The position numbers and the translations under genes are program-made. A DNA stretch of 64,000 bases from Nitrobacteraceae bacterium AZCC 1564 (GTDB taxonomy: Bacteria > Pseudomonadota > Alphaproteobacteria > Rhizobiales > Xanthobacteraceae), in contig JBAGRR010000001.1 of assembly GCA_036924835.1 (NCBI GenBank), forward strand, positions 5,843,001-5,907,000. The letters are read 5' to 3'. Below, piece after piece: positions 2,007-46,856 of this stretch. Under the pieces are notes generated by a model that saw only the letters and a list, made by a program, of their open reading frames with translations, was not told the DNA's origin and ran no database searches. Within the stretch, counting starts at the first letter, position 1, and each line of letters begins with the position of its first letter.

Positions 2007-2336
2007 CTAGTGCGGTGGATCTGACGTTCGTATCAGTATAACCGCTGATCCATCATACGAACGTCAGATCCAAAACCGCACTAGATTCATATTTTTGCTA
2101 GTGGAGTGGATTTGACATTCGCTACCCACCTTGCCGCAAATTCCGGAAGCGAATGTCAAATCCAAAACTCCACTAGAATTATATAGTTGCTAGTGGTCCT
2201 TTGATTCTAACGTTCGCAAGAGGGCCTGATGAGACGGAATGCGAACGTTAGAATGGACCACTAGTGTCCCTTAGGTTCTGACATTCGTAAACGAGCTAGC
2301 CGCAAACTCATACGAATGTCAGAACCGGGACGCTAG
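2007..2336. mobile_element. CTAG double-hairpin unit (types C + H), split by an inner unit
   Basis: The first hairpin (2007-2084) has arm GGATCTGACGTTCGTAT with extra bases in its 3' arm. The AT-rich spacer is 2085-2097. The second hairpin (2261-2336) has arm GGTTCTGACATTCGTA with a 3-nt bulge in its 5' arm. Between spacer and second hairpin, at the CTAG, lies a complete second unit (2098-2264). Removing it while keeping one CTAG leaves 167 bp, the normal unit length. The relative at 19804-19971 has the same C/H pairing without the insert. Confidence 0.8.
2098..2264. mobile_element. CTAG double-hairpin unit (types D + E), nested
   Basis: This 167-bp unit has hairpin D (2098-2176, arm GGATTTGACATTCGCT) and hairpin E (2190-2264, arm GATTCTAACGTTCGCA), each bounded by CTAG, with a 13-nt AT-rich spacer. 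D has an extra TTT-type bulge in its 3' arm and E in its 5' arm. Close copies are at 23620-23787 and 46616-46785, all three nested in other units. The CTAG at 2261-2264 is shared with the next hairpin. Confidence 0.82.
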
Positions 2337-6232: not shown

Positions 6233-6324
6233 GGAGACGTGGCCGAGCGGCTGAAGGCACTCGTTTGCTAAATGAGCATACCTTGAAAAGGGTATCGAGG
6301 GTTCGAATCCCTCCGTCTCCGCCA
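6233..6324 (+). tRNA. tRNA-Ser (anticodon GCU)
   Basis: The acceptor stem GGAGACG (6233) pairs with CGTCTCC (6314-6320), followed by discriminator G and encoded CCA. The anticodon loop TTGCTAA gives GCU, reading AGC and AGU. A long variable arm (ATACCTTGAAAAGGGTAT) is as expected for serine tRNAs, and the T-loop GGTTCGAATCC is intact. An integrase remnant begins 150 bp downstream, so this tRNA is the likely attachment site of the adjacent island. Confidence 0.95.
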
Positions 6325-6448
6325 GACCGCTTTCCCCCTCAGTCGCGCCCAATGTCTGATAGCCTCAAAAATCCGCTGTTTTAGCGGTCTAAATTTCCCC
6401 ACTAGTCTCCTGCGGGTGCTCTCGGCGTGCTACAATCTCGCGCCGGAA

Positions 6449-6469
6449 CAGGGGCACAAATAGGGGCAC
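6449..6469 (+). repeat. Left copy of 21-bp direct repeat flanking the island
   Basis: The word begins CAGGGGCACAAATAGGGG and matches 11158-11178 at 19 of 21 positions. It lies just upstream of the integrase remnant. Internally it is a near-tandem repeat of AGGGGCA. It may be an att-derived or integrase-leader repeat. Confidence 0.5.
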
Positions 6470-6477
6470 ATTCGGAG

Positions 6478-6777
6478 ATGGCTAGAGAGATACACCACCT
6501 TAGCGCCCGAGTTGTGGCCACCGCCAAGAAGGTAGGACGCCATCCTGATGGTGGCGGCCTTTATCTGTCGATTTCCAAGAACGGCGGTCGTCGGTGGGTT
6601 TTTCTCTACCAAAAGGACGGTAAGACCACTGAAATGGGCCTTGGAAGTGCCGTAGCCGGCGCCGTGACATTGGCGCAGGCGCGGGACGCAGCTGGATTGC
6701 ATCGCGCTCAATTGGCAGCCGGTCTAGATCCTCTGTCAGAACGCCGCGCTAAGGCGAGGCGCCTCTACGCCGGGTAA
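6478..6777 (+). pseudogene. Tyrosine integrase, N-terminal remnant (DUF4102 domain)
   Basis: About 99 residues are left: HPDGGGLYLSISKNGGRRWV, then FLYQKDGKTTEMGLGS and VTLAQARDAAGLHRAQLAAG. This is the N-terminal arm-binding domain found in P4-type integrases. Full-length members have about 400 residues. The core-binding and catalytic (RHRY) domains are absent, so the gene is broken. Its place directly after tRNA-Ser is the normal position for an integrase that used the tRNA 3' end as its attachment site. Confidence 0.8.
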
Positions 6778-6930
6778 CACGGGATGGAGCGTCCGGGATC
6801 GATCCGCCTCAATCGTCCAGCCGTCTTGATGACCAAGCGTGTCGGGCGCCGGTGCTCCGCCTTCATTTTCCCAAACGCCAATCGCGAGGGCGTGCCGTCC
6901 CGGTTCGGTATCCGTGCCAGGAGCGTTCAT
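6736..6930 (-). CDS. Small conserved-type hypothetical protein, C-terminus possibly rearranged
   Basis: The 64-residue product has TDTEPGRHALAIGVWENEGG near its N-terminus. I recognise this from short proteins common in Bradyrhizobium relatives, with no known function. The last ~14 codons overlap the end of the integrase remnant on the other strand, so the C-terminus is probably not original and the junction near 6765 marks a rearrangement. Confidence 0.4.
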   Translation of the reverse strand: MNAPGTDTEPGRHALAIGVWENEGGAPAPDTLGHQDGWTIEADRSRTLHPVLPGVEAPRLSAAF

Positions 6931-6945
6931 GGTAGGGGCCTTTCA

Positions 6946-7167
6946 TCAGGTGTTTGGTGCGCTGAACCTGTGAACATAAAGTTCGTTTCCGTCGCTATCG
7001 CTGATCGACATGGCGTCTGGCTGCTGCGGCATATTGAGAGTCTTTGAAAGCCTCTGCGCGATCTCGATTGCCTCATCGAGATTTGCAGGGTCCGCAGTCT
7101 CCCGGCCAATGACAGCGTGCGCCTTGTCCGTTTCGCGGATACGGTAGAACTCGATCACGATCTTCAT
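6946..7167 (-). CDS. Small hypothetical protein (MKIVIEFYR type)
   Basis: The 73-residue product reads MKIVIEFYRIRETDKAHAVI at its start and has the block LDEAIEIAQRLSKTLNMPQQ, then a C-terminal ISDSDGNELYVHRF. The alternation suggests a small alpha/beta fold. Such proteins are frequent in Bradyrhizobium relatives; the function is unknown. ATG 7167 is chosen because the conserved N-terminus begins there. Confidence 0.65.
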   Translation of the reverse strand: MKIVIEFYRIRETDKAHAVIGRETADPANLDEAIEIAQRLSKTLNMPQQPDAMSISDSDGNELYVHRFSAPNT

Positions 7168-7193
7168 CACCGATTCCCGACGCCCACAGAGCG

Positions 7194-7346
7194 TCACGAC
7201 CACCGTGCTTTGCCTTTGGCGCGCCTAATGTTTGTATTCGTGGCGAGTTTGGTTTGGTTGGCAAACGGGTCCGCTGACTTGGAAGCGGCCTTTTCCTTCT
7301 TCGGCTTTTTAGCCTCGCGATTGCCGCGCTTCTGTTCCTTAGCCAT
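7194..7346 (-). CDS. Lysine-rich 50-residue hypothetical protein
   Basis: The product begins MAKEQKRGNREAKKPKKEKA and ends in a basic RRAKGKARW segment. Short proteins of this kind (MAK.QxRxNxExKKPKK) are widespread in alphaproteobacteria; function unknown. An AAGGA ribosome-binding site precedes ATG 7346. It lies 26 bp upstream of the gene at 6946-7167 on the same strand, so the two may be co-transcribed. Confidence 0.65.
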   Translation of the reverse strand: MAKEQKRGNREAKKPKKEKAASKSADPFANQTKLATNTNIRRAKGKARWS

Positions 7347-7902
7347 GACCGAAAGTCCTTTCAATGAGAGTGGCGCTTCGCGACCAGACGAGCGGCTCAC
7401 CAGCTCGAGTTTGTCCTGCGTCGCCACCCGTTCATGACGTTTGCGGGTCTCCGCAGGGCAACGGAAGGACGCGTTGCCTAGTGTGCCCATTCGGACCGGA
7501 ACGATATCCAAGCTGCCAATACATCCGTGGTCAGCGTCGGAGTTCATTTTCAGCTATCGAATGGAGCGACATGCCGCGCCGGATGGCGCATGCATCTGCT
7601 GTCCCAAATTCGACAAAGGATGGTGGGTCTCTGACACCGCAAAGCCATATCGGCCAAATCAACGAACCCTGTTTATGTGGCCTCGATTGAGTTCTAAACA
7701 AGGAGAGCGGCTCGCTTTGTTTCTAGTTGAGGACCACTTTCCTTGAGCTCTCAGGACGCTCGAGCTGGAGGACGAATCATCGGAACTATCTGGCGCTTCG
7801 TCCATCGAACTATTCGCCCTTGTCGGTGCTTTGTCTCGATCTCCGTCCTGGCCAGGAGCAAGCACACCAAAGGCGATCGTAAGTGCTACCAGGAGAACCT
7901 TC
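7347..7902. other. Degraded island DNA
   Basis: No clear gene. A plus-strand frame at 7561-7746 (61 residues, with a CICC motif) and a minus-strand frame at 7659-7904 starting MKVLLVALTIAFGVLAPG (signal-peptide-like, then a serine run) are both open. Neither has a good ribosome-binding site, and I do not call them. Confidence 0.35.
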
Positions 7903-19803: not shown

Positions 19804-19971
19804 CTAGTGCGCTGGATTTGACGTTCGTATCAGCATTGCGGCGAGTCCTCATGACGAACGTCAAATCCAAAAGCGCACTAGTTTCATTAAGTTGCTAGTG
19901 TCCCTTCTGGTTCTAACGTTCGCAAACGAGAGTGCTGCAAAGTGATACGAACGTTAGAACCGGGACACTAG
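19804..19971. mobile_element. CTAG double-hairpin unit (C + H), uninterrupted
   Basis: This 168-bp unit has hairpin C (19804-19881, arm GGATTTGACGTTCGT, extra bases in the 3' arm), a 13-nt spacer, and hairpin H (19895-19971, arm GGTTCTAACGTTCG, extra TTCT in the 5' arm). All four boundary tetramers are intact CTAG. It lies between slt and dapA and is the clean reference for the interrupted unit at 2007-2336. Confidence 0.85.
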
Positions 19972-22598: not shown

Positions 22599-22767
22599 CT
22601 AGTGCCGCGGATTTGAAGTTCTTCCGAATGAAGCCGCAAGCCCGATGAAGAACTTCAAATCCAAAAACGGCACTAGCATGATAGACTTGCTAGTGTCCCT
22701 TTGATTCCGAAGTTCGCATCCGAGCAAGCCGCGCAACTCTGTGCGAACTTCGGAATCGGGACACTAG
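22599..22767. mobile_element. CTAG double-hairpin unit (F + G), uninterrupted
   Basis: This 169-bp unit has F (22599-22676, arm GGATTTGAAGTTCTTC), a 13-nt spacer, and G (22690-22767, arm GATTCCGAAGTTCGCA, TTT bulge in the 5' arm). All boundaries are intact CTAG. It is the clean copy of the nested unit at 17187-17354. Confidence 0.85.
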
Positions 22768-22799: not shown

Positions 22800-22840
22800 C
22801 TAGAGCTTCGGTTCTGATTCAATCAGAACCGAAGCTCTAG
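22800..22840. repeat. Perfect 41-bp CTAG-bounded palindrome
   Basis: Two exact 20-nt arms (CTAGAGCTTCGGTTCTGATT and its complement) surround a single C. Both ends are CTAG, and the right CTAG contains the TAG stop of the minus-strand glycosylase gene. It lacks the long loop of the other hairpins, so it may be a different class or serve as that gene's 3' hairpin. Confidence 0.8.
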
Positions 22841-23535
22841 TTGGCGAGATCGTCCCGGACCTTTGCGAACACGCTCTTGAACATTTTCGGTGTCAGCACG
22901 CCGGTGTTCGTGTTGTAACGCGAGCAATGATAGCTGTCGTAGAGTTTGACACTACCCGCATCGTGAATGGCGCCGTGCGCAAACGGCGCATTCGCGGCGC
23001 GAATGCCGAGCGCTTTCAGGGTCGAGTCATGCGAGACGCGGCCTAGCATCACGATCGCACGCAGGTTTGGCATGTCGTCCAGCGTCGCGTTGAGAAACGT
23101 GCGGCACGTATTGATTTCAGCGGGCAGGGGCTTGTTCTGCGGCGGTACGCAACGCACGGCGTTTGTAATGCGGCAGTTAATTAGCGTCAGCCCGTCATCC
23201 GGGCGCTGCTCGTAGACGCCCTTGGCAAAGCCAAATTCGAGCAATGTTTCGTAGAGCAGGTCGCCGGCATAGTCACCGGTGAAAGGGCGGCCGGTGCGGT
23301 TCGCACCTTGCAGACCGGGCGCGAGGCCGACGATCAGCAGCGATGCGTCGCTTGTGCCGAAGGAGGGAACCGGTCCGTTGAACCAGAGTGGTTCGCGAGC
23401 TTGATTGGCGTGCCGGAAAGCTGCGAGCCGCGGGCAGAGGGGGCAATCACGGTCAGGAACGGGGCGTTGGGCGGCAGCGGCATGTGCATGCCGTTGCCGC
23501 GATCTAGTATTTGCTTTCCGAAGTTCGTGATCCAT
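22837..23535 (-). CDS. Uracil-DNA glycosylase superfamily protein (family 5-like)
   Basis: The enzyme removes uracil or deaminated bases from DNA. The product has a Cys-rich start RDCPLCPRLAAFR (Fe-S ligand candidates), the active-site block LLIVGLAPGLQGANRTGRPF with TGDYAG, an RITNAVRCVPPQNKPLP segment with a further Cys, IVMLGRVSHDS, and SYHCSRYNTNTGVLT with the last Cys. The only in-frame ATG (23535) lies inside a hairpin element (23504-23580), so the first ~10 codons are element-derived. The native start may have been displaced. Confidence 0.82.
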   Translation of the reverse strand: MDHELRKANTRSRQRHAHAAAAQRPVPDRDCPLCPRLAAFRHANQAREPLWFNGPVPSFGTSDASLLIVGLAPGLQGANRTGRPFTGDYAGDLLYETLLEFGFAKGVYEQRPDDGLTLINCRITNAVRCVPPQNKPLPAEINTCRTFLNATLDDMPNLRAIVMLGRVSHDSTLKALGIRAANAPFAHGAIHDAGSVKLYDSYHCSRYNTNTGVLTPKMFKSVFAKVRDDLAN

Positions 23536-23835
23536 CGCCACATCCGCCTTAACGAAACTTCGGAAAGCAAAGGGTACTAGCAAAACTATAATTCTAGTAC
23601 CGCTTTCGATTTGAAGTCCCTAGTGGAGTGGATTTGACATTCGCTTCTCACCCGGCTGCGAGTTCGTCAAGCGAATGTCAAATCCAAACTCCACTAGAAA
23701 CTTATATTTACTAGTGGTCCTTTGATTCTAACATTCGCAGGAGGTGCCTACTGAGACGAGATGCGAATGTTAGAATCGGACCACTAGCGCGCGTTTGCCG
23801 AGAGTGATGCAGGGACTTCAAATCGGCGGTACTAG
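23504..23835. mobile_element. CTAG double-hairpin unit (I + J), J interrupted by an inner unit
   Basis: Hairpin I (23504-23580, arm TTTGCTTTCCGAAGTT, CCC bulge in the 3' arm) and a 13-nt spacer are followed by hairpin J. J's 5' arm (from 23594, CGATTTGAAGTCCC) and 3' arm (to 23835, GGGACTTCAAATCG) are separated by a complete D-E unit. Removing the insert while keeping one CTAG gives J = 78 bp and a whole unit of 168 bp. Hairpin I overlaps the start of the glycosylase gene. Confidence 0.82.
23620..23787. mobile_element. CTAG double-hairpin unit (D + E), inserted in a hairpin loop
   Basis: This 168-bp unit has D (23620-23697) and E (23711-23787), intact CTAG at all four boundaries, and the spacer AAACTTATATTTA. 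It sits at a CTAG in the loop of hairpin J. It is very similar to 2098-2264 and 46616-46785. Confidence 0.85.
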
Positions 23836-25393: not shown

Positions 25394-27673
25394 ATGGCGA
25401 CTTGGCGCCAAAATCATCAAATGCAGGCAGCAGCCGATGTGGGCGCAGTGACCCAGGCTGAGGCGTCAACGGCTGCGAAAAAACCGACGCGCGCCAAAAT
25501 GATGCGGCAATACGATCTGGTCGATCGGGTTCGTGCCTACAATCCGAACACCGACGAGGACTTGCTGAACAGGGCCTATGTCTATGCGATGATGGCGCAT
25601 GGCGAGCAGACACGCGCCTCGGGCGATCCTTATTTTTCGCATCCGCTGGAAGTGGCAGCCATCCTGACGAATCTGAAGCTCGACGATGCGACCATCGTCG
25701 CGGCCCTGCTGCACGACACGATCGAAGACACCGAATCAACGCGTGCAGAGATCGATCAGATTTTCGGCAAGGAAATTGGCGCGCTGGTTGAGGGACTGAC
25801 CAAACTCAAACGGTTGGAACTTGTATCACGCGAGGCCAAGCAGGCCGAGAATCTGCGCAAGCTGTTGCTCGCCATCGCCGATGACGTGCGTGTGCTGCTC
25901 GTCAAACTCGCGGATAGATTGCATAATATGCGCACGCTGGAGTTTGTGCCTCCGGCGTCGCGGCGGCGAATTGCCGAAGAGACACTCGATATCTATGCGC
26001 CGCTCGCCGGCCGCATGGGTATGCAGAAGATGCGCGAGGAGCTGGAAGACCTGTCGTTTCGTGTCCTCGATCCGGACGCGCACCTGGTGGTTGAGCAGCG
26101 GCTGGATGCGCTCGAGGAGCGCAATCGCAATTTGATCGGCGAGATTGAGTCCCAACTCGTCGCCAAGCTCGCGAAGAATGGAATCACTGCGCAGGTGAAA
26201 GGCCGGCGCAAGCAACCGTTCTCGATCTGGGTGAAGATGGAGCGAAAGTCGATCGGCTTCGAGCAGCTCTCGGACATCTTCGGATTCCGTGTCATCGTGA
26301 AGAGCCTCGAAGAGGTGTATGGCACGGTCGGTATCGTGCACACCACCTGGCCGGTCGTTCCGGGCCGCTTCAAGGACTACATCTCGACGCCGAAGCAGAA
26401 TGATTACCGCTCCATCCACACAACAGTGATCGGGCCTGGCAAGCAGCGCGTCGAACTGCAGATCCGAACCGAGGAGATGGATCGCGTCAACGAATACGGT
26501 ATCGCCGCGCATGCCTTTTACAAGGACGGCATTGGTTCACCGACCGAAATGCTTAACCGCGAGTCCAATGCGTTTGCGTGGTTACGGCATACGATCGAAG
26601 TGCTTTCGGAAAGCGCCAATCCCGAAGAGTTTCTGGAACACACCAAGATGGAGTTGTTCCACGATCAGGTGTTCTGCTTCACGCCTAAAGGAAAACTCAT
26701 TGCGCTGCCGCGGCATGCCAACGTCATCGACTTCGCCTATGCTGTGCACACCGACGTCGGCAACAGCGCGGTCGGCTGCAAGATCAACGGCAAGTTCGCG
26801 CCGCTGTCGTCCGAGTTGGAGAACGGCGACCAGGTCGAAGTGCTGACATCGCAGGCGCAATCTGCGCCGCCGAGTGCATGGGAAGCGCTTGCCGTCACCG
26901 GCAAGGCGCGCGCCGCGATCCGCCGTGCCACCCGCGCCGCTGTGCGGGACCAGTACGCAGGGCTCGGACGGCGCATCGTTGAGCGTCTGTTCATGCGTGC
27001 GAAGATTGCCTATGCCGATGACAAGTTGAAAGGCGCACTGCCGCGGCTAGCGCGATCCTCGATCGACGATGTGATGGCTGCGGTTGGACGCGGCGAGATG
27101 AAGGCCTCCGATGTCGCGCGTGCAATGTATCCCGACTACAAGGAAGAAGCTCGCATCGGAGCGAAGAAGGTCGTCGGATCAACTCCCAAGACGAAAACGC
27201 CTGCGGACATCAAGACATCAACCGCGATTCCAATTCGCGGCATCAACTCGGACCTGCCGGTGAAGTTCGCACCGAATGGCGGTGCTGTGCCGGGTGATCG
27301 CATTGTCGGCATCGTCACGCCAGGTGAGGGGATCACGATCTATCCGATCCAGGCCCCCGCGCTGAAGGATTTCGAGGAAGAGCCAGAGCGCTGGCTCGAT
27401 GTTCGCTGGGATATCGAGGAAATGGCGCCGCAACGTTTTCCGGCGCGACTGTACGTGCAGAACGTCAATGAACCGGGAAGTCTTGCCCAGGTTGCCGGCG
27501 TCATTGCCGAACACGACGGCAATATCGACAATATCAGCATGAGTCGCCGATCACCTGATTTTACGGACCTGACCATCGATCTGGAGGTCTATGACCTCAA
27601 GCATTTGAACGCTATCATTTCTCAGTTGCGCGCAAAGGCGGTGGTCGCCAACGTCGAGCGCGTCAACGGCTAG
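25394..27673 (+). CDS. rsh: Bifunctional (p)ppGpp synthetase/hydrolase
   Basis: The 759-residue Rel/SpoT homologue controls the stringent response. The HD hydrolase domain is intact (SHP near 83; HDTIED at 107-112; LADRLHNMRTL). The synthetase domain has FGFRVIV and NDYRSIHTTVIGP with the GPGKQRVELQIRT segment. The TGS domain (LPRHANVIDFAYAVHTDVGN) and C-terminal ACT domain (LAQVAGVIAEHDGNIDNISM) follow. ATG 25394 is chosen because the upstream in-frame extension lacks family character. The TAG stop lies inside the CTAG of a hairpin unit. Confidence 0.96.
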   Translation: MATWRQNHQMQAAADVGAVTQAEASTAAKKPTRAKMMRQYDLVDRVRAYNPNTDEDLLNRAYVYAMMAHGEQTRASGDPYFSHPLEVAAILTNLKLDDATIVAALLHDTIEDTESTRAEIDQIFGKEIGALVEGLTKLKRLELVSREAKQAENLRKLLLAIADDVRVLLVKLADRLHNMRTLEFVPPASRRRIAEETLDIYAPLAGRMGMQKMREELEDLSFRVLDPDAHLVVEQRLDALEERNRNLIGEIESQLVAKLAKNGITAQVKGRRKQPFSIWVKMERKSIGFEQLSDIFGFRVIVKSLEEVYGTVGIVHTTWPVVPGRFKDYISTPKQNDYRSIHTTVIGPGKQRVELQIRTEEMDRVNEYGIAAHAFYKDGIGSPTEMLNRESNAFAWLRHTIEVLSESANPEEFLEHTKMELFHDQVFCFTPKGKLIALPRHANVIDFAYAVHTDVGNSAVGCKINGKFAPLSSELENGDQVEVLTSQAQSAPPSAWEALAVTGKARAAIRRATRAAVRDQYAGLGRRIVERLFMRAKIAYADDKLKGALPRLARSSIDDVMAAVGRGEMKASDVARAMYPDYKEEARIGAKKVVGSTPKTKTPADIKTSTAIPIRGINSDLPVKFAPNGGAVPGDRIVGIVTPGEGITIYPIQAPALKDFEEEPERWLDVRWDIEEMAPQRFPARLYVQNVNEPGSLAQVAGVIAEHDGNIDNISMSRRSPDFTDLTIDLEVYDLKHLNAIISQLRAKAVVANVERVNG

Positions 27674-27836
27674 TGTCCCGAATCCAAAGTTCGCTTGATC
27701 GTGCAGCGGGCTCCATAACGAACTTTGGATTCGAGAGGACACTAGCCGAAATATAAATCTAGTGCGGTTTTGGATCTGACGTTCGTATGATGGACCAGCA
27801 GCTAATACTGATACGAACGTCAGATCCACCGCACTA
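27670..27836. mobile_element. CTAG double-hairpin unit (A + inverted C)
   Basis: Hairpin A (27670-27745) begins at the CTAG containing the rsh stop codon. After a 13-nt spacer, hairpin C occurs in reverse (27759-27836, arm GGATCTGACGTTCGTAT with the extra TTT now in the 5' arm) and ends in a degenerate CTAT. A with C is an unusual pairing, possibly a recombinant unit. Confidence 0.8.
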
Positions 27837-27875
27837 TAAGCGTCATCCTTCTGTCATCTGGTTTTGGATTTTCCC

Positions 27876-45505: not shown

Positions 45506-45671
45506 CTAGTGTCCCGCTTCCGAAGTTCGCATCATTCCGCTGCACGTTCGTTTGCGAACTTCGGAATCGAGGGACACTAGCAAGTTAATTGGTCTAGTGT
45601 GGCTTTGGTTCAGACGTCCGCATTCCAGACTCGCCGCACGAATGATGCGGACTTCTGAACCGCCACACTAG
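45506..45671. mobile_element. CTAG double-hairpin unit (G-like + B-like), uninterrupted
   Basis: First hairpin 45506-45580 (arm CTTCCGAAGTTCGCA, extra bases in the 3' arm), 13-nt spacer, second hairpin 45594-45671 (arm GGTTCAGACGTCCGCA, TTT bulge in the 5' arm). All boundaries are CTAG; 166 bp. The reverse complement closely matches the outer unit at 46527-46856. Confidence 0.83.
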
Positions 45672-46488: not shown

Positions 46489-46526
46489 GAGGTCTTGTTC
46501 GTCTCCATACAGTCCGATTCTATCCC

Positions 46527-46856
46527 TAGTGGCGGTTCAGAAGTCCGCACCTTTTAGTGCGGCGAGTCCCGGAATGCGGACTTCTGAACCAAAGCCACAC
46601 TAGAACAATAGCTTGTTAGTGGAGTGGATTTGACATTCGCTACCCACTCAGGCTGCGAGTTCGTCAAGCGAATGTCAAATCCAAAACTCCACTCAAAACT
46701 TATATTTGCTAGTGGTCCTTTGATTCTAACATTCGCAGGAGGTGCCCGCCGAAACGGGGTGCGAATGTTAGAATCGGACCACTAGTGTCCTTCGATTCCG
46801 AAGTTCGCAGACGAACGTGCAGCGGAATGATGCGAACTTCGGAATCGAGACACTAA
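46527..46856. mobile_element. CTAG double-hairpin unit (inverted G/B type), split by an inner unit
   Basis: First hairpin 46527-46603 (arm GGTTCAGAAGTCCGCA), a 12-nt spacer, then an inner D-E unit (46616-46785), and the last hairpin 46782-46856 (arm GATTCCGAAGTTCGCA), ending in a degenerate CTAA. Without the insert the unit is 164 bp. It is the reverse complement of the unit at 45506-45671, on the other side of bpt. Confidence 0.8.
46616..46785. mobile_element. CTAG double-hairpin unit (D + E), nested
   Basis: D (46616-46694, boundaries degenerate to TTAG and ACTC) and E (46709-46785, intact CTAG). The CTAG 46782-46785 is shared with the next hairpin. Third copy of the D-E unit. Confidence 0.8.

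Follow-up and report, generated by a model that had tools for sequence, protein, structure and literature searches.

In the window, that is, the whole 64-kb stretch of DNA analyzed here, a single hairpin, J (23594-23835, 242 nt), is divided by a complete two-hairpin unit, D-E (23620-23787). Very probably, D-E represents one copy of a mobile but non-autonomous element of about 167 bp, which an unlinked mover acting in trans inserted whole into a CTAG of J.

Interruption of hairpin J by the D-E unit

The insert is flanked by CTAG at 23620 and at 23784 (cf. Table 1), and removal of 164 nt with one CTAG retained brings J to 78 nt. The preliminary description had placed a complete D-E unit between the arms of J and had derived a 78-bp hairpin from this deletion; its coordinates and arithmetic are correct, and a 78-bp J is also present in uninterrupted paralogs. 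The arm of J (CGATTTGAAGTCCC) occurs exactly twice in the 64 kb, as one inverted pair, even when two mismatches are tolerated. J in turn belongs to a host twin unit (23504-23835), of which it is the inner half; hairpin C and a 13-nt spacer make up the rest.

Table 1. Coordinates of the hairpin units and their parts in the window
Feature	Position	Strand	Basis
Hairpin C, outer partner of J in the host twin, CTAG...CTAG, 77 nt	23504-23580		Eight full-length C-J twins elsewhere in the genome
Spacer of the host twin, 13 nt, IHF-like (AATTATAGTTTTG on the minus strand)	23581-23593	-	Sequence
Hairpin J, left part	23594-23619		Arm search and uninterrupted paralogs
Hairpin D of the inserted unit, 78 nt	23620-23697		Sequence
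AT-rich spacer of the inserted unit, 13 nt (AAACTTATATTTA)	23698-23710	+	Sequence
Hairpin E of the inserted unit, 77 nt, second CTAG at its end	23711-23787		Sequence
Hairpin J, right part	23788-23835		Arm search and uninterrupted paralogs
Twin unit (2007-2084 and 2261-2336) with a D-E unit (2098-2264) at its spacer/hairpin CTAG	2007-2336		Sequence
Twin hairpin, then inserted D-E-type unit (one CTAG decayed); second hairpin of the host from 46782	46526-46785		Sequence
Intact twin unit	19804-19971		Sequence
Intact twin unit	22599-22767		Sequence
Intact twin unit	45506-45671		Sequence
Twin unit, first CTAG providing the TAG stop codon of the upstream RelA/SpoT-like gene	27670-27837		Comparison with relatives

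A BLAST search with the joined J twin (insert removed, single CTAG retained) revealed eight uninterrupted full-length J twins elsewhere in the same genome (G000), with 90-95% identity to the query and an 82% match for the eighth copy (L336), and two in the relative G005 (86-88%). In these paralogs J is a single 78-bp hairpin, and they represent the insert-free state that supports the earlier claim of a whole D-E unit having moved into J as one piece, with CTAG on both sides. The accompanying claim placed a CTAG, as the entry point, in the loop of J; the entry point proved to be the top of the stem and not the open loop (CCCTG pairs with CAGGG in intact copies), and the CTAG of the recipient is deduced from the copies as follows. 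Where the unit entered, the sequence is CTGT, CTGG or CAGT in intact J copies and CTAG-unit-CTAG in both interrupted ones, and therefore the simplest inference is that the recipient copy had mutated to CTAG beforehand.

In the second interrupted J twin (L335), both the insertion point and the orientation of the D-E unit agree with those in the window, so the insertion may predate the arrival at this locus: D-E may have entered J elsewhere, the nested composite reaching 23504-23835 later. That a composite of J-C with D-E inside was formed only once, elsewhere, and moved here as a single 332-bp unit is a possibility that we find somewhat doubtful. It is consistent with the flanks of L335, which differ from those of the window copy, and with the spacer ending in CTATAATT and the GCCTAC motif in E that both copies share; however, J-C of the window shows fewer differences from the uninterrupted L328 (8) than from L335 (13), and its D-E is about equally close to L113 (9) and L335 (10), which the tree does not separate.

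The preliminary description had proposed to look for an uninterrupted J in related strains at the same intergenic locus, between the NYN and uracil-DNA glycosylase (UDG) genes. None was found: J is absent from all 26 same-genus loci examined, 24 of which contain no hairpin unit, and the remaining two (G005 and G019) have an older twin that has decayed and belongs to a different sequence family. Since the loci of the relatives are either empty or occupied by this other family, we concluded that J-C arrived in the lineage of the window. The twin of the other family also suggests separate landings in the NYN-UDG spacer. The feet of this old twin (L032 and L034) read CCAG/AAGT and CTGG.

Architecture and placement of the twin units

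The units follow the plan CTAG-hairpin-CTAG-12/13 nt-CTAG-hairpin-CTAG and have a median length of 167 bp (range 158-171). A strict pattern built on this plan gave 320 + 289 matches in the 5.99-Mb genome, compared with 3 + 5 in a reversed control, which corresponds to about 300 units, since each twin is able to match once per strand. The 1.02 Mb of sequence scanned contained 239 intact CTAG-bounded hairpins, mostly of 75-80 nt, and 88 neighboring hairpin pairs with a gap of 12-13 nt; the arrangement was head-to-head in 82 of 91 pairs, with the arm bulge towards the spacer. The units are extragenic: the center of only 1 of 91 falls inside an ORF of at least 200 aa, such ORFs making up 73.5% of the sequence. 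Their orientation is unbiased in replichore 1 (22 vs 23), and the other half gave 8 vs 2, a sample too small to be read. At the stop of the RelA/SpoT-like gene (27670-27673), where the window has the CTAG of a unit, relatives have CTAA or TTAA. Rfam matches in the 64-kb window were limited to one tRNA; no phage sequence matched the units, and four plasmid sequences did so, all distantly.

The 13-nt spacers of G000 matched the IHF consensus WATCARNNNNTTR at 6.44 of 9 positions, whereas shuffled spacers reached 4.49 (4.9 at most) and genomic 13-mers of matched AT content 4.53. The class-wide spacer consensus is AATCATAAANTTG, its position 6 being mostly T and not R. In sequence, the spacer fits a predicted IHF-like site.

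Two other features of the window were recorded. A CTAG-bounded perfect palindrome of 41 bp (CTAGAGCTTCGGTTCTGATT...; 22800-22840) lies 33 nt from a twin unit and belongs to a different type of CTAG-ended repeat, and the region 6233-7726 contains a tRNA gene closely followed by an apparent N-terminus of a tyrosine integrase, possibly the edge of a genomic island.

Distribution and signs of recent movement

Units were found at no fewer than 80 loci across the genome collection and, among the matches listed, all are from Alphaproteobacteria or from metagenome-assembled genomes (MAGs) labeled only Proteobacteria. In a sample of 398 genomes of the phylum, a narrow pattern was matched only by G000 and by a second genome from its order, with no match outside the class. 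Within the family, 58 of 150 genomes had at least one match, many of them only 1-3, which is the level of the reversed control, and copy number in unit-rich family genomes reached about 370 per strand. Twins are also present in Caulobacter ginsengisoli and Brucella tritici.

Near-identical copies were found in Chelatococcus, including C. asaccharovorans DSM 6462, in one Parvularculaceae MAG and in G100. In Chelatococcus asaccharovorans (L360, 3869-4440), three twins stand in tandem with shared CTAGs, and the first hairpin of a fourth follows before the contig ends. Recent movement is indicated by the copies in G593, G592 and G100, which are near-identical or stand in tandem.

Nested units and the CTAG target

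Nesting is not confined to J. Units are inserted at spacer/hairpin CTAGs in the window (2098-2264 and at 46.6 kb; cf. Table 1) and at L080, L114, L121, L122, L132 and L140, and inside hairpins at J, L335, L130 and L339, the last of which is nested three deep. In a scan for interrupted hairpins with CTAG-bounded arms, which covered 1.02 Mb of the genome and to which the loop insertions L130 and L339 were added by hand, no interrupted hairpin other than J both passed the filter and enclosed a complete two-hairpin unit.

Two filled/empty comparisons show that a pre-existing CTAG is the target: (i) in L130 a unit is inserted at a loop CTAG that stays present and empty in its paralog, the intact hairpin 2261-2336 of the window, and (ii) in Chelatococcus a repeat, CTAGAGCATTTTCGAGC, occurs in two copies that are free and have their own CTAG and in three in which a twin abuts the same CTAG. 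No target consensus was seen outside CTAG. A target-site duplication is unreadable at orthologous virgin sites, since the relatives are about 20% diverged. In G100 (L072, 2051-2165), a different CTAG-bounded element with the ends TACAGCGA...TCGCTGTA lies at the CTAG between the spacer and the second hairpin of a twin.

The same comparisons bear on whether J was split without transposition, through recombination or gene conversion among the scattered hairpins. These are plentiful, and chimeric units do occur, e.g., L302 of G094; however, the insert boundaries coincide exactly with whole units at CTAG, and they do so in many families and unrelated contexts, one host being a non-homologous repeat, which makes this course highly improbable.

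Covariation of the stems and of the two hairpins

The two hairpins of the unit were aligned separately on a 25-pair structure (40 L and 38 R hairpins, representing many families of Alphaproteobacteria; duplicates were removed and kinship was otherwise ignored). In the L hairpin, 98.6% of cells were paired and 18 pairs had changed on both sides (199 such cells), and the corresponding values for the R hairpin were 98.9%, 15 and 140. All 500 shuffles scored lower on all three pairing measures, and slid controls paired 25-41% of cells. Since G-T pairs are rare in the stems, except for R pair 10-71, where another register is possible, selection on DNA pairing, or repair between the arms, would fit better than RNA pairing.

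Furthermore, the L and R hairpins vary together. At stem position 19 the same base was found in both in 35 of 35 elements (mutual information 1.00, compared with a null maximum of 0.28), and for this reason one factor probably reads both hairpins, with common descent of the families also contributing.

These data must be set against a reading in which the units derive, in the manner of MITEs, from a DDE insertion sequence whose transposase acts on the outer ends only, the parent being either of the IS630/Tc1 type with TA or of the IS5/IS701 type with a 4-bp CTAG duplication. Such an origin would agree with the CTAG flanks on both sides, the terminal inverted repeats CTAGTG..CACTAG, the extragenic placement and the agreement of the L and R ends at position 7 in 30 of 35 elements. 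It is nevertheless unlikely in our opinion, since recognition of the ends alone requires neither the inner CTAGs nor the covariation of the whole stem, and since the first base of the outer CTAG is C in 137 of 153 cases in G000 and in 105 of 113 class-wide (about 90%, like the TA), in contrast to what a TA-only duplication would leave. IS630 (PF13358) is moreover represented by one fragment in G000 and is absent from G013, G103 and G118, with many copies in G094.

Search for a mobilizing enzyme

Neither a mobilizing gene beside or within the units nor an autonomous version of the unit was found in 1.02 Mb of G000 and 92 other loci. IS630 and Y1/RAYT enzymes were both judged unlikely mobilizers, as their association with the units is poor. 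A Y1 transposase gene in the upper part of a twin hairpin of G094 (L327, 1015-1950) was discounted as well, since it is bounded by its own GTGACAGTGCACTTAATT repeats and hence represents an insertion into the hairpin.

One candidate for such an enzyme is a RAYT (TnpA_REP, a Y1 HUH transposase), as for REPIN/BIME elements. The units resemble REPIN, BIME and RIB elements in being multicopy, extragenic and non-autonomous, in their inverted hairpin pairs with a tetranucleotide foot, and in the IHF-like spacer, which occupies the place of the IHF site between the hairpins of RIB-type BIMEs; moreover, G103, G118, G126, G036 and G084 carry RAYT genes, and every one of them is unit-rich. Nonetheless, we consider mobilization by a RAYT improbable. 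Y1_Tnp is absent from G000, G013, G592 and G593, the last two of which carry near-identical units, and no Y1_Tnp or RAYT gene was found in G000, G005 or G013, so that several copy-rich genomes are without the Y1 enzyme. None of the RAYTs examined had CTAG hairpins nearby, and that of L351 is flanked by copies of its own GTAGGGTGGGC repeat. In addition, each hairpin has CTAG at both feet, unlike the GTAG on one side in REPIN/BIME, and measures 75-80 nt instead of 20-50 nt.

Comparison with other repeat families

No description of CTAG twin hairpins was found in the literature searched, and their nearest known kinds are REPIN/BIME and CIR elements. The CIR elements that Chen and Shapiro (2003) described in Caulobacter and Brucella are reported to be extragenic, about 110 bp long, and composed of two stem-loops and a linker, with TA termini and often CcrM sites (GANTC), in or at the terminal loop (PMC2229807, PMC10969869). 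The units share with them the alphaproteobacterial host, the extragenic position, two independent stem-loops with a linker, TA at the termini and the frequent presence of GANTC (PMC2229807). However, they are longer (158-171 bp, median 167) than reported for CIR elements, and in contrast to the CIR loop they have GANTC mostly in the arms or not at all: it lies in the loop of 9 of 40 L and 3 of 38 R hairpins and in an arm of 25 of 38 R hairpins. CTAG targeting, nesting and the IHF-like spacer do not appear in these accounts of CIR elements (PMC2229807, PMC10969869). The two may belong to the same superfamily, their separation following from the published description of CIR and not from sequence.

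Correia/NEMIS elements, RUP and other bacterial MITEs are likewise small and non-autonomous with terminal inverted repeats, and Correia elements carry an IHF site (PMC2229807), but these elements form one end-to-end hairpin and use TA, whereas the units have two separate hairpins and the full CTAG. GTAG- and CGTC-tagged REP families form high-copy palindromic dimers, also in Bradyrhizobium and Rhodopseudomonas, that are sometimes inserted within longer palindromes (PMC3733652). Their stems are of 5-13 bp, compared with 25 here, and CTAG is not mentioned for these families (PMC3733652).

Proposed mechanism and significance

D-E consists of two inverted, non-identical hairpins and a 13-nt IHF-like spacer, and we propose that it entered a CTAG in J, a hairpin of another such element, as one piece, with CTAG on either side. 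An unlinked enzyme acting in trans would recognize the hairpins, most likely single-stranded or as a cruciform with CTAG feet, and IHF would bend the spacer and thereby bring both hairpins together. The excised or copied unit would then join a CTAG, with a net gain of one CTAG copy. Between an enzyme reading the folded hairpins and a DDE enzyme reading the ends alone, we lean slightly towards the former. More tentatively, and with less confidence than doubt, we suggest a class-wide alphaproteobacterial family of co-evolving hairpin pairs with an IHF site that is read in folded form, is specific for CTAG, and depends on an enzyme beyond HUH/RAYT and IS630.

Given their high number (about 300 in 6 Mb), their extragenic position and their recent movement in several lineages, the units shape intergenic regions; one of them even supplies the stop codon of a gene in the window. 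The insertion of one element into another provides a natural record that fixes both the boundaries of the unit and its target. Finally, the scarcity of G-T pairs and the matched changes in both hairpins point to recognition at the DNA level, which makes the search for the enzyme tractable: it is expected to vary with the family-specific stem bases and to occur in genomes with near-identical copies.
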